Shown here: positions 3,152-31,494 of the stretch, one piece after another
Numbering within the stretch: position 1 is the first letter of the stretch
Layout: every line of letters begins with the position of its first letter
NCBI RefSeq assembly: GCF_028867705.1
Contig: NZ_CP066171.1
Span: 682,001-746,000, forward strand
Reading direction: 5' to 3'
Origin: Thermoleophilum album
GTDB taxonomy: Bacteria > Actinomycetota > Thermoleophilia > Solirubrobacterales > Thermoleophilaceae
Length of the DNA: 64,000 nt
Program-made: the position numbers and the translations under genes
Notes under the pieces: model-generated
What the model was told of the DNA's origin: nothing
Databases searched by the model: none
What the model saw: only the letters and a program-made list of their open reading frames with translations

Positions 3152-3535
3152 ATGAGTGCGAGCGACACGCGCAAGCAGATCCTCGAGACGATCGACCGTC
3201 TGCTGGCCGACGTTCCCGCGTTTCGGCGCCTGCGGCTCGTGCTGCAGGTCACGCTGCGCGCCCGCGGCGGCGACGCGCCGATCTGGCGCGTCGAGCTCCC
3301 CGCCCGCAAGGTGGTGCGCGAACCTGCGCCCGATGCCCGCCTGTACGTCGAGCTGGCGCGCGAGGAGTTCAACCGTCTCGCCGGCGCTGGTTTTCACGAT
3401 TGGGCCGAGTCTTTCCAGCGTGGACGCGTGCGCGTGACCGGCGATTTGGCTGTCGTGAGGTTGCTGGGCGAGGTGGCACGGCGCGCGCTGGCGCGTGCGC
3501 CGGCGGGGCGCACGTCACGCGCGGGGGCTGGTTGA
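3152..3535 (+). CDS. Small SCP2-like protein
   Basis: This is a 127-residue protein starting at an ATG at 3152. The central part (ARLYVELAREEFNRLAGAG followed by WAESFQRGRVRVTGDLAV) resembles SCP-2 sterol/lipid-carrier domains, in which an amphipathic strand/helix pair is followed by a G-x-V/I-x-G-D pattern. No catalytic residues are expected in such domains; they bind lipids or acyl-CoAs. The stop overlaps the TTG start of the next acetyltransferase-like gene by 4 nt, so the two are probably translated together. An upstream in-frame extension exists but has no conserved look. The assignment rests on by-eye pattern only. Confidence 0.6.
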   Translation: MSASDTRKQILETIDRLLADVPAFRRLRLVLQVTLRARGGDAPIWRVELPARKVVREPAPDARLYVELAREEFNRLAGAGFHDWAESFQRGRVRVTGDLAVVRLLGEVARRALARAPAGRTSRAGAG

Positions 3536-4593
3536 GCGGAACGGTCCGCGAACTCTCGCGCGACGACCTTCCGGCCGTGGCGGCGCTTTACGAGCGCGTG
3601 ATGCGCTCGGGCGCGACGCAGCCGGCACCGGGGCTCGTCAACTACTTCGAGCGTCTCCTGTTCGGTCCGCTCCGCCACGAGGGCGTGGAGCCGCTGGTGT
3701 ACGTGCGCGAAGACGGCCGAATTGTCGGCTTTCTCGCCGCCTACGCGCGGCAGCTGGCGTCGGCCGACGGGCGGCGCTTGCTGCTGGGCTGCTCGGGCCA
3801 GCTCGTGAGCGACCCCGACGCGCGCCTCCCCGGTGTCGGTGTTGTCCTCCTCAGGCGGTTCCTTGCCGGCCCGCAGGATCTGTCGATCACCGACGGTGCG
3901 ACCGTCGCGGTGGCAGAGATGTGGCGGCGGCTGGGTGGCCGTGTTCGCGCGCTCGAGTCGCTTGTTTGGATCAAGGTGTTGCGACCGGTCAGCGCTGCGT
4001 TGCTAGCGGCCCGTACGCGCTGGGGCCGGGGTGCAGCTCCGCCCGGTTCAGCGCGGGGTAAATCTGCGGTGCCGGCAGTGGGCACGAGCCGCGAGCTCGA
4101 TGCGGCTGGGCTTGTCGAGCTGTCCGAGCGGCTGCGTGCGCGGTGGCGGTTCGCCCCCGCGCTCGATCTGGCGCTCGCCGAGTGGCTGTTGCACGAGTTG
4201 GCGCGTTCGACGCCTGCGCGCGGGCCGTTCGTGGCCCGGCAGGTGACGGGAGCGACAGGTCGTACGGTCGGGGCGTACCTCGCTTTCTTGCCGCGCGGCG
4301 GGCGCGCTCAGGCGATCTGTGTGCTGGCCGAGCGCGGCCACGAACGGCGTGTTCTCGACGATCTGTTCGCGTGTGCGCGGGCTGCCGGTGCAGCAACAGT
4401 CGAGGGGCGATTGGAGCCGCATCTGTTCGAGGCGCTCGCTAGCGCGGGCGTGATCATTCGGCCGGGCGAGCGAGCGCTCGTCCACAGCGAGGACGGCGAC
4501 CTTGCGACGCTCGCCGTCGCCGGCGACGTGCTGATGACCCGCCTCGAGGGCGAGTGGTGGATGACGCACCATCTCGACCCGCTCCCGGGCTGA
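3532..4593 (+). CDS. GNAT-like acetyltransferase
   Basis: This is a 353-residue protein with a TTG start overlapping the preceding TGA (TTGA, 3532-3535). The N-terminal part begins VRELSRDDLPAVAALYERVM and continues with a VREDGRIVGFLAAY strand, typical of the first half of a GNAT fold. The C-terminal third looks like a second, degenerate lobe. I cannot identify the acceptor substrate. The tight coupling to the SCP2-like gene suggests a shared job, perhaps in lipid or envelope modification. The exact start could be further upstream, but that would mean deep overlap with the SCP2-like gene. Confidence 0.55.
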   Translation: MSGTVRELSRDDLPAVAALYERVMRSGATQPAPGLVNYFERLLFGPLRHEGVEPLVYVREDGRIVGFLAAYARQLASADGRRLLLGCSGQLVSDPDARLPGVGVVLLRRFLAGPQDLSITDGATVAVAEMWRRLGGRVRALESLVWIKVLRPVSAALLAARTRWGRGAAPPGSARGKSAVPAVGTSRELDAAGLVELSERLRARWRFAPALDLALAEWLLHELARSTPARGPFVARQVTGATGRTVGAYLAFLPRGGRAQAICVLAERGHERRVLDDLFACARAAGAATVEGRLEPHLFEALASAGVIIRPGERALVHSEDGDLATLAVAGDVLMTRLEGEWWMTHHLDPLPG

Positions 4594-9961: not shown

Positions 9962-10813
9962 CTAAGCAGCTCGCTCGTAGGCGCGCTCGGCTTCTAGCGC
10001 TGGCGATGGGCCGTCGGCGATTCGGCGGACCAGGCTCTTGTCGAGCGCAACCCGCTGGCGTAGCCGCCAACGGACTCGCATCCGACCACTCGTCCTATCG
10101 ACAGCTACCGGAATTCGCAGACACACGGTCACGAACGTCCAAAACAGAATCCGTAGGTCGATCCCGAGCGAGCACGTCCTGACGTACATGCGATCCATCT
10201 GGAGCTTCTGGGGCAGGATCCGCTCGAGGTACTGAACCAGCGGCTCGGCGTCGCACAGCACCCGGTCCTCGCGCGCGAACGCAACTTGCGAGAGCCCGGT
10301 GATTCCGGGGCGTACCCGCAGGATCTCCTCGTACGCCCCATGATGGCTAGCGACGAACTCGGGGCTCTGGGGGCGCGGCCCAACTAGCGACATGTCCCCA
10401 CGGATCACGTTCCACAGCTGAGGCAGCTCGTCGATCTTCAGGCGAGAGATGATGCGTCCGACACGCGTCAAGCGCTCGTCGTCGGCGACGGTGAGTGGTG
10501 GCCCTCCGACCCCGACGTGCATCTTGCGCAGTTTCAGCATCGAGAACTCGCGGCCGTAGCGCCCTACCCGACGCGAGCGGTAGAGGACGGGGAAGCCAGA
10601 TTCGGCGGCAATAGCCACGGCTGCAGCAGCGATCACCGGAGCGGCGACGAGCAGCACAGCCGCTGCCACGGCGATGTCGAGCGCCCGCTTAGCGAGCTGG
10701 AAGCCGCGGTGCGGGTCGGCGTGCGTCGAGCGTGCGACGTGCCTCGTGGCACTGGTGCGGCTAACGAGCGATGTACGGCACACGTCGGGGGCTTTGCGCA
10801 GATCACGCGCCAT
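9962..10813 (-). CDS. Undecaprenyl-phosphate sugar phosphotransferase (short WcaJ/ExoY type)
   Basis: This is a 283-residue monotopic/membrane sugar transferase that starts polysaccharide repeat units by moving a sugar-1-phosphate to undecaprenyl phosphate. One long hydrophobic segment (residues about 47-68) follows KRALDIAVAA. The catalytic domain shows FSMLKLRKMHV, then SRLKIDELPQLWNVIRGDMS and VGPRPQSPEF, which are the family signatures. It lacks the extra four-helix domain of full-length WbaP proteins. It is divergent from the Wzz/BY-kinase-like gene, marking the start of an exopolysaccharide locus. The presumed ATG is preceded by a pyrimidine-rich tract with no ribosome site, so a leaderless mRNA or a later start is possible. 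Confidence 0.92.
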   Translation of the reverse strand: MARDLRKAPDVCRTSLVSRTSATRHVARSTHADPHRGFQLAKRALDIAVAAAVLLVAAPVIAAAAVAIAAESGFPVLYRSRRVGRYGREFSMLKLRKMHVGVGGPPLTVADDERLTRVGRIISRLKIDELPQLWNVIRGDMSLVGPRPQSPEFVASHHGAYEEILRVRPGITGLSQVAFAREDRVLCDAEPLVQYLERILPQKLQMDRMYVRTCSLGIDLRILFWTFVTVCLRIPVAVDRTSGRMRVRWRLRQRVALDKSLVRRIADGPSPALEAERAYERAA

Positions 10814-11165: not shown

Positions 11166-12929
11166 TTGGTCAGCAACCGTAGGTCGGGCGCCGTCCGTGC
11201 GATCAACGAGCCCCACGCAGGCGGCCAGCGGCCGGTGCTGCAGCGCTACCTTGAGGTTCTCAAAGACCGGAGAGTGCCGGCGCTGGTCGCTGTCACGGCG
11301 TGTCTCTTGGCGGCCTTTGCCGTGCTGCTCCTCCGCCCGCCGGTCTACGAGGCGGAGGTGGACATCCTCGTCAACCCCGTGTCGTCGTCCGACCCGATCT
11401 TCGCGACATCCGGCGTCGTGCGCGAGTCGGTGACGGGCACGCGCGACGTCGAGACGGTCGCACGCCTGATCGTCAACGCGCGTGTGATGCGTGCGCTGCC
11501 GGCCGAAATCAGACGCGGCAGGTCGGTGCGAGAGTTGCTCGCCCTGGTGCGCGCGCAGCCGGTTGCCGAGAGCACTGTCGTCGCGGTCACCGCGCGCGGG
11601 GCGTCACCGCGCGAGGCTAGCGACCTCGCGAATGCTGTAGCGCGCACGTTCAAGGCGTTGCGCGACGCCGACATTCGGGCTCGTGCGCGTGCGCAGATCG
11701 CCCGTTTGACAGCCAATCCACCGCCGCCCGGCAGCAGTGACGCTGTAGCCCGTGCCACGCAGCTGGCGACACTGCGAACGCTCGCGGCTGGTGGCGACCC
11801 GTCGGTTCAAATCGAGGACCTCGCCAACCCGGTCGACGCTGTCCGGATTTGGCCAAGGCCGCTGCTGACCCTGGTCGCGGCGGTCGTAGCGGGCGGATTC
11901 TTGGCTGTGGCTGTCGCCTTCTTGTTCGAAACGCTCGACAACAGAATTCGCCGCGAGGAGCACGTTCGTGACCTGTCGAGCCTTCCCATCATTGCGCGCG
12001 TACCGCTGAACCGGCCCGACGAACCGGCGAGGGCACGAAGCCCGTTTCGCGGGGCGCGTGCACGGCCACGTGGGGGCGAGCACGCGCCACTGCCGCCCTC
12101 GGCGCTGTCACCGGTCACCGTCGAAGCATTCCGCTTGTTGCGGGCGGCGTTGTCCGGGCTCGGTCGCAACACGCGCGCTGCTGGGTCGCTGTCTCCGCGA
12201 CAGCGTCCGTGGGAGGTCGCGAACAGTCAGGCAGAGAAAGGGCGCGGCGGCGAGAGCGTCCGCGGACGAGCGATTCTGATCACTAGTTCCGGACCAGAAG
12301 AGGGCAAGAGCACCTCGGCCTTGAACCTTGCGGCAGCTTTCGCGATGGCAGGGCAGTCGACGGTGCTGCTAGAAGCCGACGTGCACCGGCCTTCGCTGGC
12401 CCGTGCCCTCGGGATCAGTGTCGAGCGCTCGGTCGGAGACGTGCTGTCGCAGCGTGCCAGCGTCGAGCATGCACTTGTGTCGCTGCCGCACTTCGGAGGA
12501 CGGTTGCGCGGCCTCTTCGCAAAGCCCACTGACGCCGGCCTTGGCGATCTCTTCGCTCTGGCTCCGGGAGAGCAACTGCTGACGGACCTGCGCGCGCGCG
12601 CCGACGTAGTGGTGGTCGACTCCGCGCCCGCCCTTCGTGTCGGCGACACGCTCCAGTTGGTGGGGAAGGTGGACGATGTGGTCCTTGTCGTTCGTCTCGG
12701 TGTTACGAAGTCCGAAGAGCTGCGCCGTCTGCTCGAGCTCTTCGACCAGCAGCGGCTGCAGCCAATTGGCTTAGTGTTGATTGGCACCGATGGGGCTGAC
12801 AACGGCTACTACGGCTACGCCGGCCAGACGCGCGGATTCGAGGCGCCGGCAGGTGTGCTGAACTCGGTGGCGGTCGGTCAACGTACAGTCCGGCCGCGCG
12901 TTTATCGGGAGCGACGCATAAACAGCTGA
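11166..12929 (+). CDS. Wzz-type co-polymerase fused to BY-kinase-like ATPase
   Basis: This is a 587-residue protein of exopolysaccharide chain-length control. The N-terminal half is a Wzz domain: a membrane segment at about residues 38-56, an extracytoplasmic loop, and a second membrane segment at about 234-256. After a basic linker the C-terminal half is a BY-kinase/CpsD-type P-loop domain with Walker A SSGPEEGKST (about 374-383), Walker A' LLEADVHRPS (about 400-409) and Walker B VVVVDSAP (about 480). Instead of a long Tyr tail there is only NGYYGYAG near the end, so autophosphorylation may be limited. The TTG start at 11166 has a well-placed GGGAGGT ribosome site. It is followed by a strong hairpin at 12943. 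Confidence 0.9.
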   Translation: MVSNRRSGAVRAINEPHAGGQRPVLQRYLEVLKDRRVPALVAVTACLLAAFAVLLLRPPVYEAEVDILVNPVSSSDPIFATSGVVRESVTGTRDVETVARLIVNARVMRALPAEIRRGRSVRELLALVRAQPVAESTVVAVTARGASPREASDLANAVARTFKALRDADIRARARAQIARLTANPPPPGSSDAVARATQLATLRTLAAGGDPSVQIEDLANPVDAVRIWPRPLLTLVAAVVAGGFLAVAVAFLFETLDNRIRREEHVRDLSSLPIIARVPLNRPDEPARARSPFRGARARPRGGEHAPLPPSALSPVTVEAFRLLRAALSGLGRNTRAAGSLSPRQRPWEVANSQAEKGRGGESVRGRAILITSSGPEEGKSTSALNLAAAFAMAGQSTVLLEADVHRPSLARALGISVERSVGDVLSQRASVEHALVSLPHFGGRLRGLFAKPTDAGLGDLFALAPGEQLLTDLRARADVVVVDSAPALRVGDTLQLVGKVDDVVLVVRLGVTKSEELRRLLELFDQQRLQPIGLVLIGTDGADNGYYGYAGQTRGFEAPAGVLNSVAVGQRTVRPRVYRERRINS

Positions 12930-15995: not shown

Positions 15996-18116
15996 TCACC
16001 GCCGGTCGGTGCGGCGCGCCACGTCGCGCCGGATGAGGTCAAGCCCGGCAGCCGCCCGCGGCGCTCGCCCGCTCGCGGCTCGGCTCGCGATCTCGCGGAG
16101 CGCCTCGTTGCGGGGGGCGAGGCGCTCCGCTCGCCTCACCGCGCGGAGACCGCTCGTGGTTCGGCCGCGCTCAAGCTCGAGCAACCCGCTCAGCGCCAGC
16201 GCGACCGGTTCCCGCGGGCCACGATCCAGCGCATGCTTCAGCGAGCGCCGCGCCGCATCCTCTTCGCCGAGGGCGATCTGGATGCTCGCGAGAGCCTCGT
16301 ACGGCAGTGGCGACAGCGGGTTGAGCGCTGCCGCTAGCTCGAGCTGCGCGCGCGCTTCGCGCGGCCTGTCGACTCCCGCGCGCTGGCCCTGGCGCAGGGC
16401 GCGATCTGCCGCCCACTGGCTAGCGAGCAGCGTGGCGAGGAGTAGGCACGAGACAGCGGCCGCTAGAGAGACAAGGTTCGCGTGCCGCGCTTTCGCGGGT
16501 CGGGGAGGTAGCGATCCGCCGCGCGGCGGGCGTGGAGAGGCGGTCGCGGCGAGAGCGGCGATCGCGAGCACCGGTGTGGACAGAGCAGGAAACTCCCACA
16601 GCCAGTCGCCGCTGGCGTGCACCAAGAAATAGGTACCGCAGAGGACGGCCGTGACCCCGAGCGTTCGTGTCACGTCGTCGCCGGATGCGAGACTGCGGCG
16701 CACGCCCACGCCGAGGCCGCCCACCGCGATTGCGGATAGCGCCAGGCCGACGAGCCCAGTCCCGATCAGCAGCTGGAGGGGCAGGCTGTGAGCGTAGTAG
16801 GGGGTTTCCGGCGATCGGCCGTCGCGAAGGTAGAGGGGCGAGAAGTTTTCGGCGCCGTAGCCGATCAGCGGACGCTCGCCCGCACGCCGCCACGCCACGC
16901 GCCAGAAGTCGTAGCGGTACTGCTGGCCGAGACCGGCGACGAAGCGCGCGCCGTTGCTCGCGGCCTGCTGCTGCGCGCCGGTGAACTCTCTCCAGGCGGT
17001 GCGGGCTTTGTCTGCCGGTCTGCCGTCGGTCGCGGCCAGCACGGCCGCAGTCGCCACGGCGACGAGGGCGACGCGCAGCAGGCTGCGAGCCGCAATCCCC
17101 TTGGCGGTACCGGGTAGCGGCGGGCCCAACGGTCGCCAGCGCCGGCCGCCGGCGACGGTGTCTGCCGCGCCCCGTCTTTCGACCCAAGCCAGCACGGACG
17201 TAACCGCGAAAGCACCGGCCGCGGCCAGCGCTAGCGGACCGACGATGGGGCCGACGAGGTCGCTGCCTGGAGCTGTCGGCCGGTAGCGCTCGTACACCGC
17301 GAGGAGCGACGGCAGGAGCACGACCACCGCGGCGACAGCGGGCAGGGCGAAAGCGATCAGACGTGGTAGCTCCCGCAAAAGTAGCGCGGCGAAGAACACA
17401 GCGACCGTGGCCACCAACCAGCCACGGCTCTGTGTCAGTACAGCGAGGGAGAGCAAGAGCACCGCGGCTGCCGCCGCGGCGCCACGGGCCGGTGCGCTCA
17501 GGTCGCGGCGCGCAGCCGCGACCAGCGCGACGAGCGCGCCGAGCATCCACAGGGCAGCGTTGGCGTTCACGTACCCGACGGGTTCTGCCAACCGTCCCTG
17601 GTGAAAGTGGGTGAAAGCCGCGGTCGCCGCGTGGGCGTTCGCGAGTTCGACGATCGCGGCCGCCGTGACCCCGACGAGCCAGATCGTCAAGAGAACCGTT
17701 GCGCGGGCGCTGGACAGCGGCCAGAGGACGAGCAGCGCCATCGCGAGCAATGGCGGCAGGATCCGCAGCGCGCCATCGAAGGCGATCCACGGCTGGAGCG
17801 CCCAGGTCACGCTCAGGAAAGACCAAACGCAGAGCGCCACAAGCGCCGCGAGTGCCACCAACGCGGGAAGCGACGGGCGGGCAAGACGCGGACGCGGGAG
17901 CGCCAGCAGCGCGACTGCGAGAGCTGTCGCTAGCACCGCCGTAGCGGGCGCGAAGACACGCACGAAAAAGCCCCCCTCCGCGAATGCCATCCATGCGGCG
18001 ACCGCCGGAACGAGCGCGGCGAACGGAAGCGACGGCTGGGCGGCGACAGCGGTAGCGAGCCGCCGACCGGCTCGCCGCGAGGCGCGTTCGGTGTCGGTCA
18101 CGCGGCTCTCGGGCAA
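15996..18116 (-). CDS. O-antigen ligase/polymerase-family membrane protein with TPR tail
   Basis: This is a roughly 706-residue protein with about a dozen hydrophobic segments covering residues 1 to about 520, and an extracytoplasmic loop containing GYGAENFSPLYLRDGRSPETP and YAHSLPLQLLIGTG. This is the O-antigen ligase (WaaL/Wzy) signature region, where conserved Arg/His act on lipid-linked sugars. The last 130 residues are helical TPR-like repeats (ARAQLELAAALNPLSPLPYE, EDAARRSLKHALDRGP). It probably polymerises or transfers the polysaccharide built by this locus. It is third in the sortase-deacetylase-ligase operon, 1 nt after the deacetylase stop. The TTG start at 18116 could be replaced by a GTG 15 nt further in. 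Confidence 0.88.
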   Translation of the reverse strand: MPESRVTDTERASRRAGRRLATAVAAQPSLPFAALVPAVAAWMAFAEGGFFVRVFAPATAVLATALAVALLALPRPRLARPSLPALVALAALVALCVWSFLSVTWALQPWIAFDGALRILPPLLAMALLVLWPLSSARATVLLTIWLVGVTAAAIVELANAHAATAAFTHFHQGRLAEPVGYVNANAALWMLGALVALVAAARRDLSAPARGAAAAAAVLLLSLAVLTQSRGWLVATVAVFFAALLLRELPRLIAFALPAVAAVVVLLPSLLAVYERYRPTAPGSDLVGPIVGPLALAAAGAFAVTSVLAWVERRGAADTVAGGRRWRPLGPPLPGTAKGIAARSLLRVALVAVATAAVLAATDGRPADKARTAWREFTGAQQQAASNGARFVAGLGQQYRYDFWRVAWRRAGERPLIGYGAENFSPLYLRDGRSPETPYYAHSLPLQLLIGTGLVGLALSAIAVGGLGVGVRRSLASGDDVTRTLGVTAVLCGTYFLVHASGDWLWEFPALSTPVLAIAALAATASPRPPRGGSLPPRPAKARHANLVSLAAAVSCLLLATLLASQWAADRALRQGQRAGVDRPREARAQLELAAALNPLSPLPYEALASIQIALGEEDAARRSLKHALDRGPREPVALALSGLLELERGRTTSGLRAVRRAERLAPRNEALREIASRAASGRAPRAAAGLDLIRRDVARRTDRR

Positions 18117-18117
18117 G

Positions 18118-19002
18118 CTAACGGCGCCGCACCTCGCTGTCGCTCGGTGGTGTCGCGGCTGGCGATATGGCCCTCCCTGCCCGTAGGTACCGCCAGACGT
18201 CGGTGGAACGCAGCCGGACGACCGCAGGGTTCGCTTTCAAGGCGAACCGCCAGCCGCTGTCGGCTCGGTAGATGCCGATCCGCGGCCAGGCGAGCGGCTG
18301 CGGGGCGGAGAAGTGGGCGCTGAGCAGCGCGGCCGCTTCGTAGCCGGCTTGGCCGGCGATCGCGGCGACTTGTTCGTTCCAGTCGCCGTAGGGATACGCG
18401 AGCGACCTGCAAGCGACACCGAGGATTTCCTCTAGCCACTGTTTAGAAGCGCACAGCTCTTCGCGCACGGCCGCATCGTCCAGGCGTGACAGACGCGGGT
18501 GTGTGGCGGTGTGGGAGCCGATCTCCCAGCCTGCCGCCACCAGCTCGCGCAGGTCATCGGGCGATAGAGGCTCGAGCTCCCGTTCGTAGGTCGTCCCGAG
18601 CCACTGGGAGATGCCCTCCCAGCGCAGCGGCGAGCCATCGCCGGCGAAGCTCGTGACGACGAACACCGTCGCCGGAGCGCCGACCCCGCGCAGAACCGGT
18701 AGCGCTCGCGTTAGGTTCGACCGGTAGCCGTCGTCGAAAGTGACCGCTGCGATACGGGCCTTGCCCTCGTGGGCGCCGCAGCTCACGCAGTTCACGAGCT
18801 TGCTGAAGGTCACGAACTTGTAGCCCCGCCGTTGCAACAACCGCAGGTGGCGTGCGAGCTGTGTTTGCGTGACCGCTAGCGGGGACGGCCAGTCATCGCT
18901 CACGGCGTGGTAGCAGAGAACGAGCGCTTCCAAGGCGGGCGCTGGGGAACCGGACAGGGGCAGTAGCAACAGCAGCCTACCGCTCCTTAGCTCCGGACGC
19001 AC
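18118..19002 (-). CDS. Polysaccharide deacetylase (NodB homology domain)
   Basis: This is a 294-residue carbohydrate esterase 4-type enzyme. The metal/catalytic motifs are visible: TFDDGYRSNL at about 88-97 (catalytic base and metal Asp), EIGSHTATHPRLS at about 160-172 (the two metal His), and YPYGDWN near 219. It would remove N-acetyl groups from an extracellular or lipid-linked polysaccharide. The N-terminus has a weak hydrophobic segment (LLLLPLSG) that may export it. Its GTG start directly abuts the sortase stop (TGAGTG) and its own stop lies 1 nt before the next gene, so the three genes are one translation-coupled operon. Confidence 0.9.
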   Translation of the reverse strand: MRPELRSGRLLLLLPLSGSPAPALEALVLCYHAVSDDWPSPLAVTQTQLARHLRLLQRRGYKFVTFSKLVNCVSCGAHEGKARIAAVTFDDGYRSNLTRALPVLRGVGAPATVFVVTSFAGDGSPLRWEGISQWLGTTYERELEPLSPDDLRELVAAGWEIGSHTATHPRLSRLDDAAVREELCASKQWLEEILGVACRSLAYPYGDWNEQVAAIAGQAGYEAAALLSAHFSAPQPLAWPRIGIYRADSGWRFALKANPAVVRLRSTDVWRYLRAGRAISPAATPPSDSEVRRR

Positions 19003-19733: not shown

Positions 19734-20519
19734 GTGGAGCGAGCGCAGGCCACGCGCCGCGGCGGCACGACACCTGCCGTTGTGGTGCCGACAGAGCCCA
19801 CCTGCGGATTCGAAGACTCGCCAGGACGAACGGTGGCCAGCACCTTCTTTCGAGCGCTACACGATCGGGTGCAGCGGGCCCGGGCGCTCGGCGCGCGCGA
19901 AGTCGCGCGGCGCCTGCGCGACCGGGTGTTGCGGCACGTTTGGTGGAGCGAGCAGCACGTCTGGTACGTCGCCGACACGCACGCCGTGCGCGGCACCGTT
20001 CCCGACGGGTTTAGGTTGCGCCGTGTCGTCGACCGCCGGTCGCTCCCCGGCGACGTGAGCAGCGTCGGTTTGCGCGTCGCGACAGCCGTCGCGTGGCTCG
20101 CCGTGGGTGGGGAGCTCTGGGTTCTCGAGAACTTGGCGAGCAGCGAACTTGCCTTCGCGTGCTGGATTTTCCGGGAGCGCGCACCCGCGCTCGCCGCGCG
20201 CGGCGGCTGGTTCCGCGTACCGCCCGCCTGCGCGGTGCTAGAGGACTCGTTCACTGCCGTGTCGTACCGCGGGCGTGGTCTGGCTCCCGCCGCCTGGCGC
20301 TGCATCTGCGCGGATCTCGAGGCTAGCGGCGTGCGCGCACTCTTGACCAAGGTGGAGGTCGCGAACACGCCGTCGCGGCGGGCCTGCGAGAAGGCCGGCT
20401 TCCGCGAAGTCGCGGCGATGCGGTTCCGGCGGCGGCTGTTCCTCCGCAAGGTGCACGTGACGGGCAGCGGAACGCCCGTCGCGAGCCTGAGGCAAGCGCT
20501 CGCGGCCGAGTCAGGTTAG
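19734..20519 (+). CDS. GNAT-family N-acetyltransferase
   Basis: This is a protein of up to 261 residues. The C-terminal half carries the GNAT core: AVSYRGRGLAPAAWRCICAD (acetyl-CoA-binding R/Q-x-x-G-x-G/A region) and VEVANTPSRRACEKAGFREV (the N-x-x-S-x-x-x-x-x-K-x-G-F closing motif). The N-terminal half is less conserved. Acceptor unknown; location beside polysaccharide genes suggests a sugar or lipid-linked substrate. The GTG at 19734 gives the longest form, but the GTG at 19833, beginning VASTFFRALHD, would leave a more normal divergent promoter space to the sortase and may be the true start. Confidence 0.75.
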   Translation: MERAQATRRGGTTPAVVVPTEPTCGFEDSPGRTVASTFFRALHDRVQRARALGAREVARRLRDRVLRHVWWSEQHVWYVADTHAVRGTVPDGFRLRRVVDRRSLPGDVSSVGLRVATAVAWLAVGGELWVLENLASSELAFACWIFRERAPALAARGGWFRVPPACAVLEDSFTAVSYRGRGLAPAAWRCICADLEASGVRALLTKVEVANTPSRRACEKAGFREVAAMRFRRRLFLRKVHVTGSGTPVASLRQALAAESG

Positions 20520-22424: not shown

Positions 22425-22532
22425 GGAAGGCGCGTCCAGCGCGTGTCGCGCGGGCGGCCTCCTTTCTTCGGAGCGCTACGTCGGTGATGCGCGCGGGTCG
22501 CGGTGCCGAGCCGATCTCGCGACGGTCGGCGC

Positions 22533-23630
22533 ATGGATAGTGCGCAGGTCCCGCCGGTCGAGTTCATCGACCGACCCGACCTGGTACGCGAAGCGTGGGA
22601 CCGGCTCGCGGTTGCCACGCGCAACATCTTCGCCACCTGGGAGTGGCACGACGCGTGGTGGAAGCACCTGCGGTGGGGCAGACCGCTGATCGCCGTCGAG
22701 CGGAACCGGCGCGCCCTGCTGCCCCTCGCCGTGAGGGGCCGGGGTCCGCTCACCGTCGCGCGCAGCGCAGGTTTCGGTCCGGCCGACGAACTGGGACCGC
22801 TCGCAGCACCCGAGGATGGTGCTCTCGCAGCGTCACTCGTGCGGCAAGCGGCGCGGGCGCTTCCACTAGTCTTCCTCGAACGCGTACGCGCTGACACAGA
22901 CTGGCTCGGGACGGTGCGCGTGCACTGCGTGCGGCGGGAGGAGTGGCCGTTGATCGACCTCGCGGCCTATGGGGATTGGGAGGAGTATCTCGCGAGCCGG
23001 TCGGCGAACTTTCGCCAGCAGCTCCGCCGCAGGCGGCGTAAGGCCGAACGCGAACTCAGCTTCCGTCCCCGACTCGCGACCGCCGATACCTTCGAGCGCG
23101 ACTTCGAGCTTTTGCTCGCGCTGCACGAGCTGCGTTTCGGCAGCAGCTCGCAAGCGTTCCGCGGAGCACGCGCAGCGTTCCACCGCGACTTCGCTCGCGC
23201 CGCGCTCGAGCGCGGTTGGCTGCGCCTGTGGATCGGCGAAAGCGAGGGGCGTCCGGTCGCTGCGGTGTACTGCTGGCGCTTCGCCGGCGTCGAATTCATG
23301 TACCAGACCGGTCGCGACCCGGCGTTCGACCGCTGGGCAGTGGGCCAGGTGCTGCTTGCCGAGACCGTGCGCGCCGCGCTCGAAGACGGGGTGCACGAGT
23401 ACCGCTTTCTGCTCGGTGGGGAGAGCTACAAGTACCGCTTCGCAACCGGTGATCCGGGCGTTGTGACGGCAGCGTGCGGTCGCGAGCCCGTTGTGTCGCT
23501 CGCGCATCTCAGTCTCGGCGCGGCGCGGACCTCCTTCCGCGCCTTGCGCCGCATCCGCGATGCGGTGGTGCGCACCCGCGGGCTGGCGAGGCGTTCTGTT
23601 TCGGCCGCGAACGCGCGCGACGGTGCTTGA
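22533..23630 (+). CDS. CelD/BioF2-like acetyltransferase
   Basis: This is a 365-residue protein of the GNAT superfamily branch found in polysaccharide loci (cellulose-biosynthesis CelD-like). An N-terminal lobe (IFATWEWHDAWWKHLRWGRP) is followed by the diagnostic basic segment SANFRQQLRRRRRKAERELS and the second lobe with ESEGRPVAAVYCWRFAGVEF and KYRFATGDPG. Members transfer acyl groups to sugars or peptides in envelope polymers; the substrate here is unknown. ATG 22533 was chosen; an in-frame start lies 30 nt upstream. Its last 122 nt overlap, antisense, the 3' end of the secreted glycosidase gene. Confidence 0.8.
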   Translation: MDSAQVPPVEFIDRPDLVREAWDRLAVATRNIFATWEWHDAWWKHLRWGRPLIAVERNRRALLPLAVRGRGPLTVARSAGFGPADELGPLAAPEDGALAASLVRQAARALPLVFLERVRADTDWLGTVRVHCVRREEWPLIDLAAYGDWEEYLASRSANFRQQLRRRRRKAERELSFRPRLATADTFERDFELLLALHELRFGSSSQAFRGARAAFHRDFARAALERGWLRLWIGESEGRPVAAVYCWRFAGVEFMYQTGRDPAFDRWAVGQVLLAETVRAALEDGVHEYRFLLGGESYKYRFATGDPGVVTAACGREPVVSLAHLSLGAARTSFRALRRIRDAVVRTRGLARRSVSAANARDGA

Positions 23631-25011
23631 CGGGGTGGGCACGCTCGCGCGTGCGACAGCGCGCGCACGCGTCGCGGCGCAGTCGACGGCCTGTCGCTCG
23701 GTGCGCAGCGCTGCGGCGGCGCATCGACCTCCGCGCCCGTGCCGCCTGCGCCGCCCGTGCCGTGCGGGCGGCGCGGGCGGCCGCTAGCGCCCTTGAGCTC
23801 TCCCACTCGCGGCGGAAGCGAGCGACGAGCGCCTTGACGGTGGCGAAAGCGCGTTTGCGCCGCAGCGCGTAGGGCGCCCGCGTTATGTCGAGGGTGACCA
23901 TCCCTTCCGAGAGGAAGCGCTCATCCTGTTCGTGGAGATAGCCGTCACGCAAAGTGACGAACACCTGGTCGGCGCCGGCGCGCAGAGCAAGAGGTATCGC
24001 CCGCTCGTAGTAGGCGGCTTGGGAGCGCTCGCCGCCGTTGTAGGGCGGCACTTGCCAGCGCGGGTCGGCGGGGTAGGCGAACTCGGTCAGCCACAATGGC
24101 AGCCCGCCGAGGCCGTGGTCGCTGTAGTAGCGCCGCCAGCGCAGCACCGCCGTGCGCACGCGCTCGAGCGGCTCGCGAACGTGGGCGTTGACGACGTCGA
24201 ACGGCCGCGCCCCACCGAGCGCTGCGAACACGCCATCGAACCACGGCATGCCGCCGCCAGCCGTCATCGGTGCGGCGAGCACGATCTTGGTTTGGGGGAA
24301 TGCTGCCTTGATGGCGCCGGCCGCTGAGCGCACCATCGCTGCGTAGTCGCTCGGCGAGCCGGCGAAAACCCAGTCGCCGTCGGGCTCGTTGCCGATCTCG
24401 ACGTAGCGGAAGACGTCGGGCGCGCGAGCGACGACAGCGGCTACCAGGCGCCCATACTCGCCGACATCGCGCGGCGGGCACTTGAACCAGCTGCGCTCGC
24501 CCCACTGCGGACACGTCGAGAGGTAGCCTGGCGTCCCGACCATGATCGCCAGCAGGCGGACGTGGTAACGCCTCGCGAGCCAGATCATCTCGTCGATACC
24601 CGAAAAGTCGGGTGTGGCCCGGCGGCGGCCGCCCTCGTCGAAAAGCGCGTCGAGATAGATGTCAACACGCAAAAAGCCGGCGCCGAGATCGACGGCCTCG
24701 CGCACCACCTTCTCCTTCAGCTCGAACGGCATGCAGCAGGCGTAGGTCTGCGAGTGGAGCGAGATCGGGCTGATCCACTCGTCCGACCGTGCATCTGCAG
24801 TGGCAGCCGCACGCGCTGCCGCCGGCGCTCCTCCGCCGGGAGGTGGCGCCGCTGCGGTCGATGATGCCGCTGCGGGTGTTGGCGCCGCGACGGCCGCTGC
24901 CGCCGTGGCGAGCAGCGCCGCCAACGTCAAGCCCCAGAGCGCCCTCGCGCGCGCAGTGCGCGCCCACGGCCGCGCGCTCAGCGCCGCCGTCTCCTTGCCG
25001 CGACGAAACAT
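23509..25011 (-). CDS. Secreted glycoside hydrolase-like protein with Arg-rich tail
   Basis: This is a 500-residue exported TIM-barrel protein. It has a signal peptide (about 1-43, LTLAALLATAAAAVAAP), an Ala/Pro-rich linker, then a barrel from about 78 to 390 resembling clan GH-A (GH39/GH5-like). The acid/base Glu is in YVEIGNEPDGDW and the nucleophile Glu in LWLTEFAYP. It likely cleaves a glycan outside the cell, perhaps the locus's own polysaccharide. From about 400 on the sequence turns into a 100-residue Ala/Arg-rich, highly basic tail. The last part of that tail is encoded antisense to the neighbouring acetyltransferase gene (23509-23630). The tail may be a read-through extension. Confidence 0.75.
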   Translation of the reverse strand: MFRRGKETAALSARPWARTARARALWGLTLAALLATAAAAVAAPTPAAASSTAAAPPPGGGAPAAARAAATADARSDEWISPISLHSQTYACCMPFELKEKVVREAVDLGAGFLRVDIYLDALFDEGGRRRATPDFSGIDEMIWLARRYHVRLLAIMVGTPGYLSTCPQWGERSWFKCPPRDVGEYGRLVAAVVARAPDVFRYVEIGNEPDGDWVFAGSPSDYAAMVRSAAGAIKAAFPQTKIVLAAPMTAGGGMPWFDGVFAALGGARPFDVVNAHVREPLERVRTAVLRWRRYYSDHGLGGLPLWLTEFAYPADPRWQVPPYNGGERSQAAYYERAIPLALRAGADQVFVTLRDGYLHEQDERFLSEGMVTLDITRAPYALRRKRAFATVKALVARFRREWESSRALAAARAARTARAAQAARARRSMRRRSAAHRATGRRLRRDACARCRTRERAHPVKHRRARSRPKQNASPARGCAPPHRGCGARRGRRSAPRRD

Positions 25012-25351: not shown

Positions 25352-25513
25352 GTGACCATCAGACGGCTCGCGCTACGGATTCTCTACTGGCTGCTGGTTC
25401 TCGCCGTCTCGCTAGCGCTGCTAGTCGCGCTCGTGCTGTTCATCGAGTCGCGCGACCCTACGCGCGTCGGCAGCGTGCCGCAAGCCGCGCCGCTCGCCAG
25501 CGTCGCCCACTAG
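25352..25513 (+). CDS. Small single-pass membrane protein
   Basis: A 53-residue frame begins at GTG 25352 with three early basic residues (IRRLALR), then a clean hydrophobic helix of about 22 residues (ILYWLLVLAVSLALLVALVL). A short hydrophilic tail rich in Ala/Pro/Ser ends in VAH and TAG. Its stop codon interlocks with the stop of the opposing carrier-protein gene in the palindrome CTAG (25510-25513), a neat convergent end that supports both genes. It resembles no family I know. It could be an accessory of the neighbouring natural-product cassette or unrelated. Start context is weak. Confidence 0.5.
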   Translation: MTIRRLALRILYWLLVLAVSLALLVALVLFIESRDPTRVGSVPQAAPLASVAH

Positions 25514-25764
25514 AGGGTGCGCTCAGCGGTGGTGTGGCGCGCGACGAGCGCCGCGATCGCCTTCACGGTCCGGAAAGAATCGAGCTCGAGCTCGTCGGGC
25601 GCCAGCTGGAAACCGAACTCGTGCTCGAGTTCGCTGATCAACGTCACCAGCCCCAGCGAGTCGAGCAGGCCGGTTTCGAACAGGTCGGTGTCGCGGCCGG
25701 GCGGCTCGACCGCCAGGGCATCGCGCATCAGGTCGACAATCCGTCGCTCGACATCGGCGTTCAT
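25510..25764 (-). CDS. Acyl/peptidyl carrier protein
   Basis: This is an 84-residue stand-alone carrier protein. The phosphopantetheine attachment Ser lies in FETGLLDSLGLVTL (residue about 36), framed by acidic helices as usual. Stand-alone carriers of this kind accept an aminoacyl or acyl group from an adenylation domain. Its ATG overlaps the stop of the adenylation-domain gene by 4 nt (ATGA), so the two are co-translated. It is the last gene of the four-gene cassette. The sequence is nearer to carrier proteins working with DltA-like or NRPS A domains than to fatty-acid ACP, by my reading. Confidence 0.9.
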   Translation of the reverse strand: MNADVERRIVDLMRDALAVEPPGRDTDLFETGLLDSLGLVTLISELEHEFGFQLAPDELELDSFRTVKAIAALVARHTTAERTL

Positions 25765-27353
25765 CTTCCAACCTCTTCGCGGAACCGTTCGACCAGCGCA
25801 CGGCGGTCGATCTTGCCGTTTACGTTCTTGGGTAGCTCGGGCAGCTCCAACCAGCGCGTCGGCAGCATGTAGCGGGGGAGAAGCTCAGCCAGCTCCCGAC
25901 GTAGAAGCGCGTGGTCGGCGTCGGCCTGTGGACGTCGACTCCACGCAGCGCAGATCGCCGTCCCTTCGACACCTCCCACGGGCACGCCGACGACCGCGCA
26001 CTCCCGCACGGCGTCGAGTTTGTTGAGAGCGGCCTCGATCTCGCCGAGTTCGATCCGGTAGCCACGATGCTTGATCTGGGCGTCGCGCCGGCCGTGGAAG
26101 AAGAAGAGGCCGTCGCGATCGCGGCGGCCGAGATCGCCGGTCCGGTAGCAGCGCCGCGACGGAGCGCGCGGGTGAGCGACGAACGCGCGGCGGGTTCGCT
26201 CCGCGTCGCGCCAGTATCCCGGCGACAGACCCACCCCGGCGATCCAGATCTCACCGACCTCTTCGACGGCGGCTTCGCTCCCGTCCTCGCGCACCACGAG
26301 CAGCTCTTCCCCTGGGCAGGGGCGCCCGATCGGGATCTCGTCGTCGCTTGCGGGCAGGGCCGGGACGTCGTAGTAGCTGGAGGCGATCGTCGCCTCGGTG
26401 GGGCCGTAGAGGTTCGTGAAACGCACGTGCGGTAGCCGCTGCATCCAGTGGCGCAGGACCGGTGTCGGCAGCACCTCTCCGCACCAAAGCAGGCGCTTCA
26501 ACGTCGGAAAATCATGGTCGGCGACGGCGTCGAAGCGTGCGAGCAGGGTCAGGACGGACGGAACCGAAAACCACTGCACGAGCTCGCGCTCGCGGATGAA
26601 CCGCGCGAGCCCGCGCGGGTCGACGTTGAGCTGAGGCGGCACCAGGTGCAGCTCGGCGCGGGCGTGGATCGAGCCGTAGATGTCGAACGTCGAGAGGTCG
26701 AAGTGGAGCGGCGGATGACCCGACAGCCGCTCACCGGGCGCGATCGCAAAGTGGCGAACCGCCCAGCGCACGAAGGCGACCGCACTGCGGTGCGTCACCT
26801 GTACCCCTTTCGGCTCGCCGGTCGAGCCGGACGTGAAGAGAATGTGCGCCACATCGCTGTCGCCGTTCGCTAACTGCGGGTAGCTGCGCGGACGGTCGAG
26901 CCATGTGCGCGCCGCGACGTCGGCGAGCGGATCGCCGTCCGGTTCGAGTGCCACGCAGAGTGGGCGGCTGGCTGCGCCGAGCGTGTCGAGACTAGCCCGG
27001 GCCCGCTCGAGTCCGGGACGGTCGCCAACGATCACAGCTGGATCAGCGGAGCGGAGAACGAGCGCGCTGCGCGCCGGCGGACTGTCCGGGTCGACGGGGA
27101 CGTACGCGCAACCAGCACGCAACGCGGCGTGCATCGCCACGATCGCGCGCGGGGATTTGTTGACAGCGAGAACGACGCGGTCCCCGGATGAGCACCCGCA
27201 CACGTCGCGCAAACAGTTCGCCAGGCGTGCGCTCAGCTCGTCGAGCTCGGCGAAGGTCAGCCGCTCTGCGCTCCCGACCACGGCCGTCGCCTGCGGTGAG
27301 GCAGCCGCAGCGGCGTCGAGAAAGTGCTCGAGACGCAGCGGATCGCTGGTCAT
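25761..27353 (-). CDS. Stand-alone NRPS-type adenylation domain
   Basis: This is a 530-residue ANL-superfamily enzyme with NRPS core motifs in order: FTSGSTGEPKGV (A3), FDLSTFDIYGS (A4), NLYGPTEATI (A5), GEIWIAGVGLSPGY (A6), YRTGDLGRR (A7), GRRDAQIKHRGYRIELGEIE (A8) and NVNGKIDR with the catalytic Lys (A10). It should activate an amino acid or related acid as an adenylate and load the adjacent carrier protein. Reading the pocket positions by eye gives roughly D-L-F-S-L-C-L-I-A-K, suggesting a small or polar substrate; this is tentative. No condensation or thioesterase domain is attached. It overlaps genes on both sides by 4 nt (LLM oxygenase before, carrier after). Confidence 0.93.
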   Translation of the reverse strand: MTSDPLRLEHFLDAAAAASPQATAVVGSAERLTFAELDELSARLANCLRDVCGCSSGDRVVLAVNKSPRAIVAMHAALRAGCAYVPVDPDSPPARSALVLRSADPAVIVGDRPGLERARASLDTLGAASRPLCVALEPDGDPLADVAARTWLDRPRSYPQLANGDSDVAHILFTSGSTGEPKGVQVTHRSAVAFVRWAVRHFAIAPGERLSGHPPLHFDLSTFDIYGSIHARAELHLVPPQLNVDPRGLARFIRERELVQWFSVPSVLTLLARFDAVADHDFPTLKRLLWCGEVLPTPVLRHWMQRLPHVRFTNLYGPTEATIASSYYDVPALPASDDEIPIGRPCPGEELLVVREDGSEAAVEEVGEIWIAGVGLSPGYWRDAERTRRAFVAHPRAPSRRCYRTGDLGRRDRDGLFFFHGRRDAQIKHRGYRIELGEIEAALNKLDAVRECAVVGVPVGGVEGTAICAAWSRRPQADADHALLRRELAELLPRYMLPTRWLELPELPKNVNGKIDRRALVERFREEVGR

Positions 27354-28459
27354 TCGCGCGGCGTCCGAGCGGACGGCAGCGTGGCGTATTCGAAGGCACG
27401 AGCGGTGTGCTCGAGCTCCTCAGCGGACGCTGGGATGTCGAGGATGAAGAGGCTCGCTCCCTGCTCCAGGTAGCGGGCGAGTTCGCGTCCGACCCGCTCG
27501 TAGCTGCCGACAAGGTAGGGGCAGAAGGTGTGGTAGTTCTGGAACGGCCAGAGCCAGTAGGGGCTCGGTTCGGCGCCATCCGGGCCACGTCGACCCGCGA
27601 TCTCGGCTGGAGCGTCGTGGTGGCGTTGCGACAGCTGCGTGTGCCAGTGCGAGTCCGACACACGCATCGCTAGCTGGTGGAGAAGCTGGCCCTTGCGATC
27701 GGCCGGGAACCGTTCCCCAGCGACCGTCCAAGCCTCCTCGGCGCTTACGCGCGCGATCACACCGATGCGTACGCCGCCGCGCAGGTCGCTCTCCTCGTCG
27801 GGCGGTTGCGGGTAGCGCACCGGCGTCGCGCCCAGCGCCTCCGCGGTCGCAAGCCCGCTCGGCGAAGAGCCCGACACGAGCACCTCTGGGAAAAGGTCGG
27901 GATCGAGCGGGGGAACGAGCCGCAAGTTGCGCACCGTCCACCAGCGACCCTCGTGCGTCACCGTCTCGCCGCGCAAAAGAGCCAGCAGAATCTCGCCGTA
28001 CTCGCGCGTGCGCTCGTAGCGGAGATCGTGGGGGGTGTCGTCGCCGAGTGCGAGCAGATCGTTGCGGAAACCGCCGGCGAGGAGGTTGAGCGCAACCGCG
28101 CGCCCGTGCATCCAGGCGAGCGAGCTCACCATCTTGGCGGCGGAGTACGGGTGCATGTACACCGGCTGGACAGCGACGAGCGGCGCGATCCGTTCGGTCG
28201 CCGCGATGACAGTTTCGGCGACGAGCCAGGGGTCGCAGATGCCGTTGTCGGTGTAGACGAGGATGCCGGCACAGCCGGCGCTCTCGCTCCAGCGCGCGAC
28301 ATTGCGGACGGCGCGCAGATACCGCGTGCCGTCCGGATAGTCCTTCGATTGGGGGCAGGTCGAATAAACCCGTAAACGGGGCCGGTCCGGGAACACCTCT
28401 ACACAGCGTAGTCCAGCACACGCGTCGCAGCCACCGGCGCCGCCAGCGTCGCTCGCCAC
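27350..28459 (-). CDS. Luciferase-like monooxygenase of natural-product type
   Basis: This is a protein of about 369 residues of the bacterial luciferase superfamily (flavin-dependent TIM barrel). Recognisable parts are SAGCAGILVYTDNG, VAVQPVYMHPYSAAKMVSSL, GRAVALNLLAGGFRNDLLAL, the REYGEILLALLRGETVTHEG segment with its following WWTV, and EVLVSGSSPSGLATAEALGA. It is closer to the alkanesulfonate-monooxygenase/MupA-type branch found in NRPS and PKS clusters than to F420 oxidoreductases. It would hydroxylate or oxidise a carrier-bound or free intermediate with reduced flavin. The GTG at 28459 was chosen for its GGGGAG ribosome site; a GTG at 28396 is the alternative. It lies 16 nt after the formyltransferase stop. 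Confidence 0.85.
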   Translation of the reverse strand: MASDAGGAGGCDACAGLRCVEVFPDRPRLRVYSTCPQSKDYPDGTRYLRAVRNVARWSESAGCAGILVYTDNGICDPWLVAETVIAATERIAPLVAVQPVYMHPYSAAKMVSSLAWMHGRAVALNLLAGGFRNDLLALGDDTPHDLRYERTREYGEILLALLRGETVTHEGRWWTVRNLRLVPPLDPDLFPEVLVSGSSPSGLATAEALGATPVRYPQPPDEESDLRGGVRIGVIARVSAEEAWTVAGERFPADRKGQLLHQLAMRVSDSHWHTQLSQRHHDAPAEIAGRRGPDGAEPSPYWLWPFQNYHTFCPYLVGSYERVGRELARYLEQGASLFILDIPASAEELEHTARAFEYATLPSARTPRE

Positions 28460-28475
28460 ACGGCTCCCCGGACGT

Positions 28476-29423
28476 TCAGACGGGCAAGCGCTCGCCTGGC
28501 ACGAGCAGCGACCGGGTAGAGGAGCGGCCGTCGTCTCCCGCTGCCGAGGGGGCGGCGAGCCGGACTGCCAGAAGGCCGTCGGCCGCTGCCACGACGGCAC
28601 GCCGGCCGTGCGCCGCGATCACCGTGCCGGCTGGGTGTGAGGCGCTGCCGCCGACGATCTCGGCGTGCGTCACAGACAGCGTCAGACCGTCGCTGCGCAA
28701 GATCCACGGCTCGCCCCATGGCGAGGGGAACGGCCCGTAGTCGCAGGCGCGAACCAATGCCTCGAGTTCGCGTACGGGGCGCGACCACTCGAGCCGTCCG
28801 TTGCAAGGCGGGCCCGCAGGGAAGAGCCGGCGCCGGGACAAGTCCTGCGGGCGCCGGGGCGGTTCGCGCCCGGCGAGAAACTCGTCGACAGCGCGCTCGA
28901 CCAGCGCCACGCCCAAGCGCGCGCAGGTCGCGGCGAGCTGGAAAGCGCGCTCGCGCCCGGTAAGCGTGAAACGCTCGCAGTAAGCGATCGGCCCGGCGTC
29001 GATTTCGGCGCTCATCCAGTGCAGCGTCACGCCGTGCTCGCGCTCACCGAGGTAGATCGCCCAACTGGGCGCGTTGAGTCCGGCGAGTTCGGGCAGCGGG
29101 CCGGGATGGAGGTTGAGAGCACCGATGCGCGGCGCCGCGACGACCGCCGGCGGCAGAACGTGGAGGGCGTGCACGTTCAACACCAAGTCGGCGGAGTCGG
29201 CGAGCCGCGCGGCGAAGGCAGGATCGCGCACCCGGGCTGCCGGCTCGACGGACAGCCCGGCGCTGCGCGCCGCTTCGGCGACCGGCCCGCCGCGGGCCGT
29301 GTGGGCACGCACCGAGTCGGTCAACACCAGCACGGGCTCGACGCCACGGTCGAGCAGGCTACGCAGAACGCGCGCGCCCGTCGCCTCCTCGGCGATCAGC
29401 GCCACGCGCAGCGGCCGCGCCAT
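28476..29423 (-). CDS. Formyltransferase (Fmt-like, natural-product type)
   Basis: This is a 315-residue protein with the formyltransferase catalytic domain: Asn and His in IGALNLHPGPLPELAGLNAP and the Asp in MSAEIDAGPIAY form the usual N-H-D trio. A C-terminal OB-like domain contains LVRACDYGPFPSPWGEPWI, a pattern I associate with formyltransferase modules in natural-product enzymes rather than housekeeping Met-tRNA formyltransferase. It would transfer formyl from 10-formyl-tetrahydrofolate to an amine. It is the first gene of the cassette formyltransferase - LLM oxygenase - A domain - carrier, all minus strand with short gaps or overlaps. Confidence 0.87.
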   Translation of the reverse strand: MARPLRVALIAEEATGARVLRSLLDRGVEPVLVLTDSVRAHTARGGPVAEAARSAGLSVEPAARVRDPAFAARLADSADLVLNVHALHVLPPAVVAAPRIGALNLHPGPLPELAGLNAPSWAIYLGEREHGVTLHWMSAEIDAGPIAYCERFTLTGRERAFQLAATCARLGVALVERAVDEFLAGREPPRRPQDLSRRRLFPAGPPCNGRLEWSRPVRELEALVRACDYGPFPSPWGEPWILRSDGLTLSVTHAEIVGGSASHPAGTVIAAHGRRAVVAAADGLLAVRLAAPSAAGDDGRSSTRSLLVPGERLPV

Positions 29424-30522: not shown

Positions 30523-31494
30523 CTAGCGCGGTGCGAGACCGTCGAGCGTCGCCTGGAAATCGGTGCCGGGGATCGGGCCGACGCAGGGCAGCGTGGCACC
30601 GGCGCGCTGGTAGCGCTCGACGGCCGCGCGCGCCTCGCTCTCGGGCCCGATCGCGGCGAGCGAGGCGATGAAGCGGTCGGATATCGCTGCGGCCGCTGCC
30701 TGCGGACCGTTCTCTTGCATCGCGCGGTCGAAGGCCGCGATGTCGGCACCGAACCCCGAGCGCTCCAACATCGCCCGGTAGAACGGCAGCGAAAAGTAGG
30801 GAACGAGGTCGCTGCGCAAGCGTTCCTTGGCCGTGTCGCGGTCGTCCGTCACCGCCGACGGCACCGCCGCCACGACCGCGACAGCGCCCGGGTCGCGCCC
30901 CACCCGCTCGGCGCCTGCACGGACCTCGGGCACGACGACCGACTCGATGTACTCGGGCACGCACAGCCACAGGATCACGCCGTCGGCGATCTCGCCGGCG
31001 AGCCGCAGCATCCGCGGCGACAGCGCGGCGATGTAGATCGGAACGCGGGCGGGGGGTTCGACGCCCGCGAAGCGGAAGGCGGTTGGGAAACGGTCGCTAG
31101 CGGGCGGCTCCTCGCCGCGCAGGATCGCGCGCACCGCCCCGAAGTAGTGGCGCATGTCGCGCACCGGCCGGTCGATCTTCTGCCCGTACCAGCCCTCGAC
31201 GATCGGGGCGTGCGACACCCCCAAGCCGAGCACGAGACGGCCGCCCGAGAAGGCGTCGACGGTCGCCGCCTGTTGGGCGCAGGCGACGGGAGTGCGCGAG
31301 TAGATCGGCAACACCCCCGTGCCCAACCGTGCACGCTGGCTGCGGGTTGCGTACGCCATCAACACCGTCAGCGAGTCGAAACCGGCGATGTGGGTGGTGA
31401 AGATCGCCTCGTAGCCGAGGCGGTCGGCCAGCTCGACCCGCTCCAGCGTGCGCTCGAGCGAACGTCCCGGTGAAACGAAAGCGCCAACTGTCAT
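30523..31494 (-). CDS. LLM-class F420-dependent oxidoreductase
   Basis: This is a 323-residue luciferase-like TIM-barrel protein of the F420 type. Features are TVGAFVSPGRSLERTLERVE, ADRLGYEAIFTTH, ARLGTGVLPIYSRTPVACAQ, GRLVLGLGVSHAPIVEGWYG and RDMRHYFGAVRAILRGE, the standard pattern of F420H2-dependent reductases and dehydrogenases. F420 biosynthesis genes occur at 46.4 and 55-58.7 kb, so the cofactor is available. Substrate unknown. It stands about 120 nt downstream of the meaB operon on the same strand and does not obviously belong to it. Confidence 0.88.
   Translation of the reverse strand: MTVGAFVSPGRSLERTLERVELADRLGYEAIFTTHIAGFDSLTVLMAYATRSQRARLGTGVLPIYSRTPVACAQQAATVDAFSGGRLVLGLGVSHAPIVEGWYGQKIDRPVRDMRHYFGAVRAILRGEEPPASDRFPTAFRFAGVEPPARVPIYIAALSPRMLRLAGEIADGVILWLCVPEYIESVVVPEVRAGAERVGRDPGAVAVVAAVPSAVTDDRDTAKERLRSDLVPYFSLPFYRAMLERSGFGADIAAFDRAMQENGPQAAAAAISDRFIASLAAIGPESEARAAVERYQRAGATLPCVGPIPGTDFQATLDGLAPR

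Follow-up and report, generated by a model that had tools for sequence, protein, structure and literature searches.

We analysed a 64,000-nucleotide stretch of the Thermoleophilum album genome, a single 2.11-Mb contig (G000:C1:682001-746000, hereafter the window), in which four genes encode a formyltransferase (FT), a luciferase-like monooxygenase (LLM), a free-standing adenylation (A) protein and a stand-alone peptidyl carrier protein (PCP). The cassette is real and conserved. We propose, with a probability of roughly 0.58, that it is a loading module of a non-ribosomal peptide synthetase (NRPS), dissected into separate genes and reused for surface-polysaccharide decoration, and not for a free natural product. 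Its four genes are as follows.

28476..29423, minus strand: FT with an Fmt/ArnA-type fold (Formyl_trans_N, 63.9 bits, and Formyl_trans_C; N104-H106-D142)
27350..28459, minus strand: LLM flavin monooxygenase of an SsuD-derived, carrier-associated subfamily (Bac_luciferase, 97 bits)
25761..27353, minus strand: free-standing NRPS-type A protein (TIGR01733; code DLFFLCLIAK)
25510..25764, minus strand: stand-alone PCP (PP-binding, 49 bits; Ser36 in the DSL motif)

An earlier note on this DNA had described four packed minus-strand genes, and its coordinates and spacing hold: FT and LLM are separated by 16 nt, while LLM and A, and A and PCP, each overlap by 4 nt. The LLM start codon is a GTG at 28459, although the true start may lie further in. 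Pfam matches to Formyl_trans_N and Formyl_trans_C, Bac_luciferase, AMP-binding and AMP-binding_C, and PP-binding are all above gathering scores. The N-H-D trio claimed for the formyltransferase is present in a Formyl_trans_N fold, and the free-standing A domain and carrier are likewise borne out, with A scoring 375 bits against the TIGR01733 cut-off of 317.4.

The LLM-A-PCP core was found in nine Thermoleophilia genomes from several families and partially in one planctomycete, on a contig where LLM is followed by A; sampling outside Thermoleophilia was sparse and these counts mainly describe that class. Nine genomes keep LLM, A and PCP together, so their packing is more than chance, and the lack of conserved co-occurrence that the earlier note had allowed for was not observed. 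LLM orthologues with 57-71% identity are found in relatives (G001, G023, G059, G144, G595, G724 and G729), and in G177 the end of LLM lies at the contig start, followed by A, PCP and a GNAT-like protein. The order FT-LLM-A-PCP, with FT immediately upstream, is seen in four genomes (the host, G001, G023 and G059), and FT adjoins the core in at least five. In G724, FT is at the end of one contig and LLM at the end of another, which fits a contig break between the two genes. Elsewhere the arrangement varies: LLM-A-PCP, hexapeptide acyltransferase, FT in G595; LLM-A-PCP-GNAT in G144, with only general formyltransferases elsewhere; and A, PCP, hexapeptide acyltransferase, carbamoyltransferase, LLM in G729. 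Near-identical LLM, A and PCP genes are present in the metagenome bin HRbin41, whose contig, together with that of the planctomycete, was the sole find of one contig scan. The distribution of the cassette is patchy. A NodU/TobZ-type carbamoyltransferase adjoins the cassette in three genomes (L039 7680-9524, L046 3633-5545 and L092 3008-4906), the Pfam check of these calls covering the G144 copy only.

The earlier note had found no condensation (C) domain nearby, and none (PF00668) was detected across the whole host genome either. The cassette A is the sole host protein above the NRPS A-domain cut-off, and this is also the case in G001, G059, G144 and G595, the other genomes tested. The host has one AcpS-type phosphopantetheinyl transferase (PPTase). 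A minimal load-and-tailor cassette, conserved without C, thioesterase or Dlt partners, is upheld.

Near the cassette, the window contains Wzz, Wzy and sugar-phosphate transferase genes, which are markers of a Wzx/Wzy-type exopolysaccharide locus.

9962..10813, minus strand: Bac_transf sugar-phosphate transferase, exopolysaccharide initiation (PF02397, 182 bits)
11166..12929, plus strand: Wzz chain-length determinant with a P-loop ATPase domain (PF02706, 26.9 bits, above cut-off)
15996..18116, minus strand: Wzy/O-antigen-ligase-like membrane protein (Wzy_C; PF04932, 50 bits)
18118..19002, minus strand: polysaccharide deacetylase (PF01522, 110 bits)
19734..20519, plus strand: GNAT acetyltransferase (PF00583, 29 bits)

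Bac_transf, Wzz, Wzy and the deacetylase lie 6-20 kb from the cassette. In each of the five genomes whose contigs are long enough, exopolysaccharide genes lie no more than 25 kb from the cassette, the distances to the closest Wzz being 16.5, 4.5, 5.3, 24.2 and 3.1 kb. Wzy, Wzz, flippase, CpsB or glycosyltransferase genes surround the cassette in G059 and G144. No Wzx flippase was recognised in the window; G144 has a Polysacc_synt protein, and a flippase-like open reading frame (ORF) in the G001 locus was read by eye, as were DegT-like ORFs near the G144 cassette.

The release mechanism, left unexplained by the earlier note, now has a candidate enzyme, which lies in the window outside the interval described there. 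A second candidate is encoded closer to the cassette.

3511..4593 (ORF 3400-4593), plus strand: GNAT-like acyltransferase, candidate release enzyme (45% identical to the GNAT that follows PCP in G059)
22503..23630, plus strand: CelD/FemAB-type acyltransferase (Acetyltransf_6), second candidate (PF13480, 93 bits)

A GNAT-like protein of 360-370 residues directly follows PCP in five genomes (G059, G023, G724, G144 and G177), and a homologue lies elsewhere in the cassette locus in the host and in G001, in the latter on the far side of the polysaccharide locus. In a survey of 201 relatives (threshold E<=1e-25), the family was present in 6/6 cassette genomes and 7/195 others (p 2e-8). Assignment of the release candidate to the GNAT family is suggested by weak profile matches: four of six members match Acetyltransf_1 at E<=1 (best E 1.2e-6; window member, E 0.012), and the PDB profile match is a phosphinothricin N-acetyltransferase (E 8e-4). 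In all six inspected of the seven non-cassette genomes, the GNAT gene lies beside a different AMP-ligase, which indicates that it tracks carrier-protein systems and not LLM as such. These loci (L093-L098; G181, G091, G014, G102, G064 and G034) show the family beside an operon of AsnB-like, NAD-synthase-like and AMP-ligase genes, with a carrier-protein ORF recognisable in most (genes identified by reading the sequence); in G595, the cassette is followed directly by similar genes for an AMP-ligase, AsnB and NAD-synthase-like proteins (L047 14326-19215). G595 and G729 are without the GNAT and have a hexapeptide acyltransferase after PCP instead. The Acetyltransf_6 family also occurs near the G059 cassette and, in Deinococcus, beside FT and A-LLM-PCP genes.

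Together, these observations suggest the following mechanism. A would activate one amino acid, presumably small, and load it onto the stand-alone PCP. In a tailoring order that we infer, LLM would oxidise the carrier-bound aminoacyl group by N- or alpha-oxidation, the on-carrier site being implied by its linkage to carrier genes, and FT, where present, would formylate the nitrogen of the same group. The GNAT-type acyltransferase, or in two lineages the hexapeptide-repeat acyltransferase, would then take the acyl group off PCP and attach it to an exopolysaccharide sugar, at an amino or hydroxyl position, the probable acceptor being the polymer made by the adjoining Wzx/Wzy-type locus. The decorated envelope component that the earlier note had offered as one outcome is thereby favoured by the exopolysaccharide loci and the co-occurring carrier-linked acyltransferase, and its main framing as a small natural product is not supported.

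Several points weigh against this proposal. The host GNAT is 21 kb from the cassette, with exopolysaccharide genes, a sortase and GNATs in between, and its immediate neighbours belong to central metabolism (acyl-CoA dehydrogenase and succinyl-CoA ligase-like genes). That it takes a carrier-bound acyl donor is implied by co-location, and its single-sequence AlphaFold model was poor (pLDDT 35.5) and was not used. Enrichment of polysaccharide genes near the cassette (Wzz, p about 3e-5; Bac_transf, p 7e-4; one genome per genus) comes from Fisher tests that treat related genomes as independent under a simple placement null, and the neighbourhood was noticed first and tested afterwards. Finally, neither G144 nor G729 yielded a dedicated FT, so that the product may differ between strains; of the four-gene membership claimed in the earlier note, LLM-A-PCP is kept but FT is not obligate.

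Loading of an amino acid by A onto PCP is established chemistry of both families. LgrA is the best solved-structure match of the A protein, and seven of the eight complete A sequences from cassette genomes carry the code DLFFLCLIAK, that of G144 being DLFFVCLIAK. The A proteins of G595 and G729 are divergent (32-36% identity to the host A), yet the code is kept. This constancy points to one substrate shared by the cassette A proteins. The code is similar to DLFYLALVCK of A proteins beside acyl-CoA dehydrogenases in Microvirga and S. clavuligerus, and the Microvirga A matches a solved L-proline ligase at 366 bits; the most that can be said is that the substrate is probably a small or proline-like amino acid. 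The proline-to-pyrrole (PltF/PltE) pathway was considered and set aside: A is close to that subfamily, but the cassette has no adjacent acyl-CoA dehydrogenase and its code differs from the dehydrogenase-linked code at four positions. On the Microvirga plasmid (L054 9527-12616), carrier protein, proline-type A and acyl-CoA dehydrogenase genes lie within a polysaccharide locus, which suggests a pyrrole-carboxyl group on a glycan.

LLM had been called MupA-like in the earlier note, an assignment that we reject. The MupA/Atu3671 model TIGR04020 detects fused FT-A(LLM)-PCP proteins at >479 bits but not this LLM, which in the tree falls on the SsuD side, apart from the TIGR04020 proteins, with some long branches. 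Its nearest solved relatives are SsuD alkanesulfonate monooxygenases (1m41, E 1e-37), but it scores far under the family cut-offs (90.5 bits against 518 for the SsuD equivalog TIGR03565, and 94 bits against 510 in a further SsuD comparison), and SsuD occurs in the context of sulfonate transport whereas the cassette LLM occurs with a carrier protein. LLM represents a separate SsuD-derived subfamily associated with carrier proteins. No relatives of LLM were found on viral contigs. Hydroxylase, epoxidase and Baeyer-Villiger-type activities have been reported for gene-cluster LLMs (PMC8739492). For necroxime, the proposal is that an oxime is installed on a glycine primer by specialised oxygenase, dehydratase and methyltransferase domains (PMC7318616).

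The FT scores 57.7 bits against the Fmt model TIGR00460, under its cut-off of 201.5. In the FT tree, cassette FTs group first with the FT from a Deinococcus capsule/polyketide synthase (PKS) locus and next with the FT domains of the fused alphaproteobacterial proteins (key forks 90/92 and 93/93), apart from ArnA, Fmt and the sugar-type Leisingera FT, with moderate support. Because of this grouping, action on a carrier-bound amino acid is favoured over action on a sugar, although not proven. A tentative variant, compatible with decoration of the polysaccharide, is that FT N-formylates an amino sugar of the polymer and LLM-A-PCP-GNAT adds a separate aminoacyl group. Retention of LLM-A-PCP-GNAT without FT in G144, the Formyl_trans_C domain of FT, and the position of the related Leisingera FT between a sugar transferase, a deacetylase and a DegT aminotransferase are all consistent with this variant; the tree position and the placement of FT immediately upstream of LLM-A-PCP in four genomes argue against it.

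We consider it unlikely that the product is a modified amino acid, small and diffusible (a signal, chelator or antibiotic), that leaves the carrier by hydrolysis or by transfer to a small acceptor, with the exopolysaccharide genes as mere neighbours. Plasmid clusters that encode more distant LLM relatives (40-47% identity) do resemble natural-product clusters, in that they also contain genes for A, PCP, halogenase, P450, acyl-CoA dehydrogenase and transporters, and the patchy distribution of the cassette also fits. However, the loci examined showed no recognisable thioesterase or transporter alongside the cassette, the exopolysaccharide context is repeated across genomes, and the cassette A is the only NRPS-type A domain in the tested genomes. 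Plasmids of Tritonibacter, Gemmobacter and Rhizobium on which distant relatives of LLM are encoded (L033-L035) also carry genes for AMP-ligases and a PPTase and, depending on the plasmid, for a carrier protein, acyl-CoA dehydrogenase, halogenase or P450.

A narrower form of the decoration proposal is that both tailoring enzymes act on one carrier-bound amino acid, LLM by N-hydroxylation and FT by N-formylation, and that GNAT installs the resulting N-formyl-N-hydroxy (hydroxamate) group on the exopolysaccharide. This is improbable; if true, it would describe a surface glycan with siderophore-like metal-binding side groups, made by an NRPS loading module no longer engaged in peptide synthesis.

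A Dlt-like D-alanylation system, with A as DltA and PCP as DltC, an outcome that the earlier note had itself foreseen, is rejected as highly improbable: A and PCP do match DltA and DltC (304 and 40.8 bits), and in both an A protein and its carrier work for the envelope with no C domain involved, but these scores fall under the family cut-offs (476 and 68), no MBOAT/DltB (PF03062) is present in the host genome, and Dlt systems are without the LLM, FT and predicted GNAT-type acyltransferase of the cassette.

Among known systems, lincosamide synthetase (LmbC + LmbN-CP) is similar in that one amino acid is loaded by a stand-alone A and carrier protein and is attached to an amino sugar with no canonical C domain involved (PMC4351081). 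Its amino acid is proline-like, and the code of the cassette A varies on the proline-type one; lincosamide synthetase differs in belonging to an antibiotic pathway, in its mycothiol-like condensing part and in being without LLM or FT. The LgrA initiation module of linear gramicidin (F-A-PCP) also combines FT and A on one carrier-bound amino acid, but has no LLM and feeds an NRPS line, whereas the cassette genome is without a C domain. The fused FT-A(LLM)-PCP proteins of Ruegeria, Paracoccus and Shinella share with the cassette the four activities, a related FT and a polysaccharide neighbourhood. They differ in that a TIGR04020 LLM is inserted in the A domain, a PKS follows, one or two polypeptides replace four, and A codes such as DILQMGMIWK are glycine-type, unlike the cassette code. 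Ruegeria, Paracoccus, Shinella and Rhizobium plasmids (L051, L052, L055 and L082) encode proteins of 1540-1570 aa that begin with FT and adjoin a type I PKS within exopolysaccharide-type loci; for Ruegeria and Shinella the domains were read as FT, A interrupted by LLM, and PCP, and the A code is glycine-type. A Deinococcus actinosclerus plasmid (L050 8939-20696) carries FemAB/Acetyltransf_6, FT, an A-LLM-PCP protein and PKS beside CapK/polysaccharide genes, and, with FT as a separate gene, is an intermediate between fused and split forms.

Carrier-protein chemistry is usually read as natural-product synthesis. The cassette is a variant on this known chemistry and not a separate category: a very small conserved NRPS-derived set, in a C-domain-free genome, linked both with exopolysaccharide genes and with a GNAT-like family whose members occur beside a second, different adenylation/carrier operon as well. 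In the literature, of which few subscription-journal papers were reached, we found no description of an FT, LLM and adenylation set or of NRPS parts in exopolysaccharide synthesis. If the proposal is correct, genome-mining tools are mislabelling loci of this kind when they report NRPS-like metabolite clusters, and oxidised, formylated amino acids would join the substituents of bacterial glycans, with a clear enzymatic route behind them.

Two further genes flank the cassette. A second, unrelated luciferase-family protein is encoded just upstream, on the same strand (30523-31494), and a glycoside hydrolase gene conserved in G001 comes directly after PCP.

23509..25011, minus strand: putative glycoside hydrolase (Glyco_hydro_cc)

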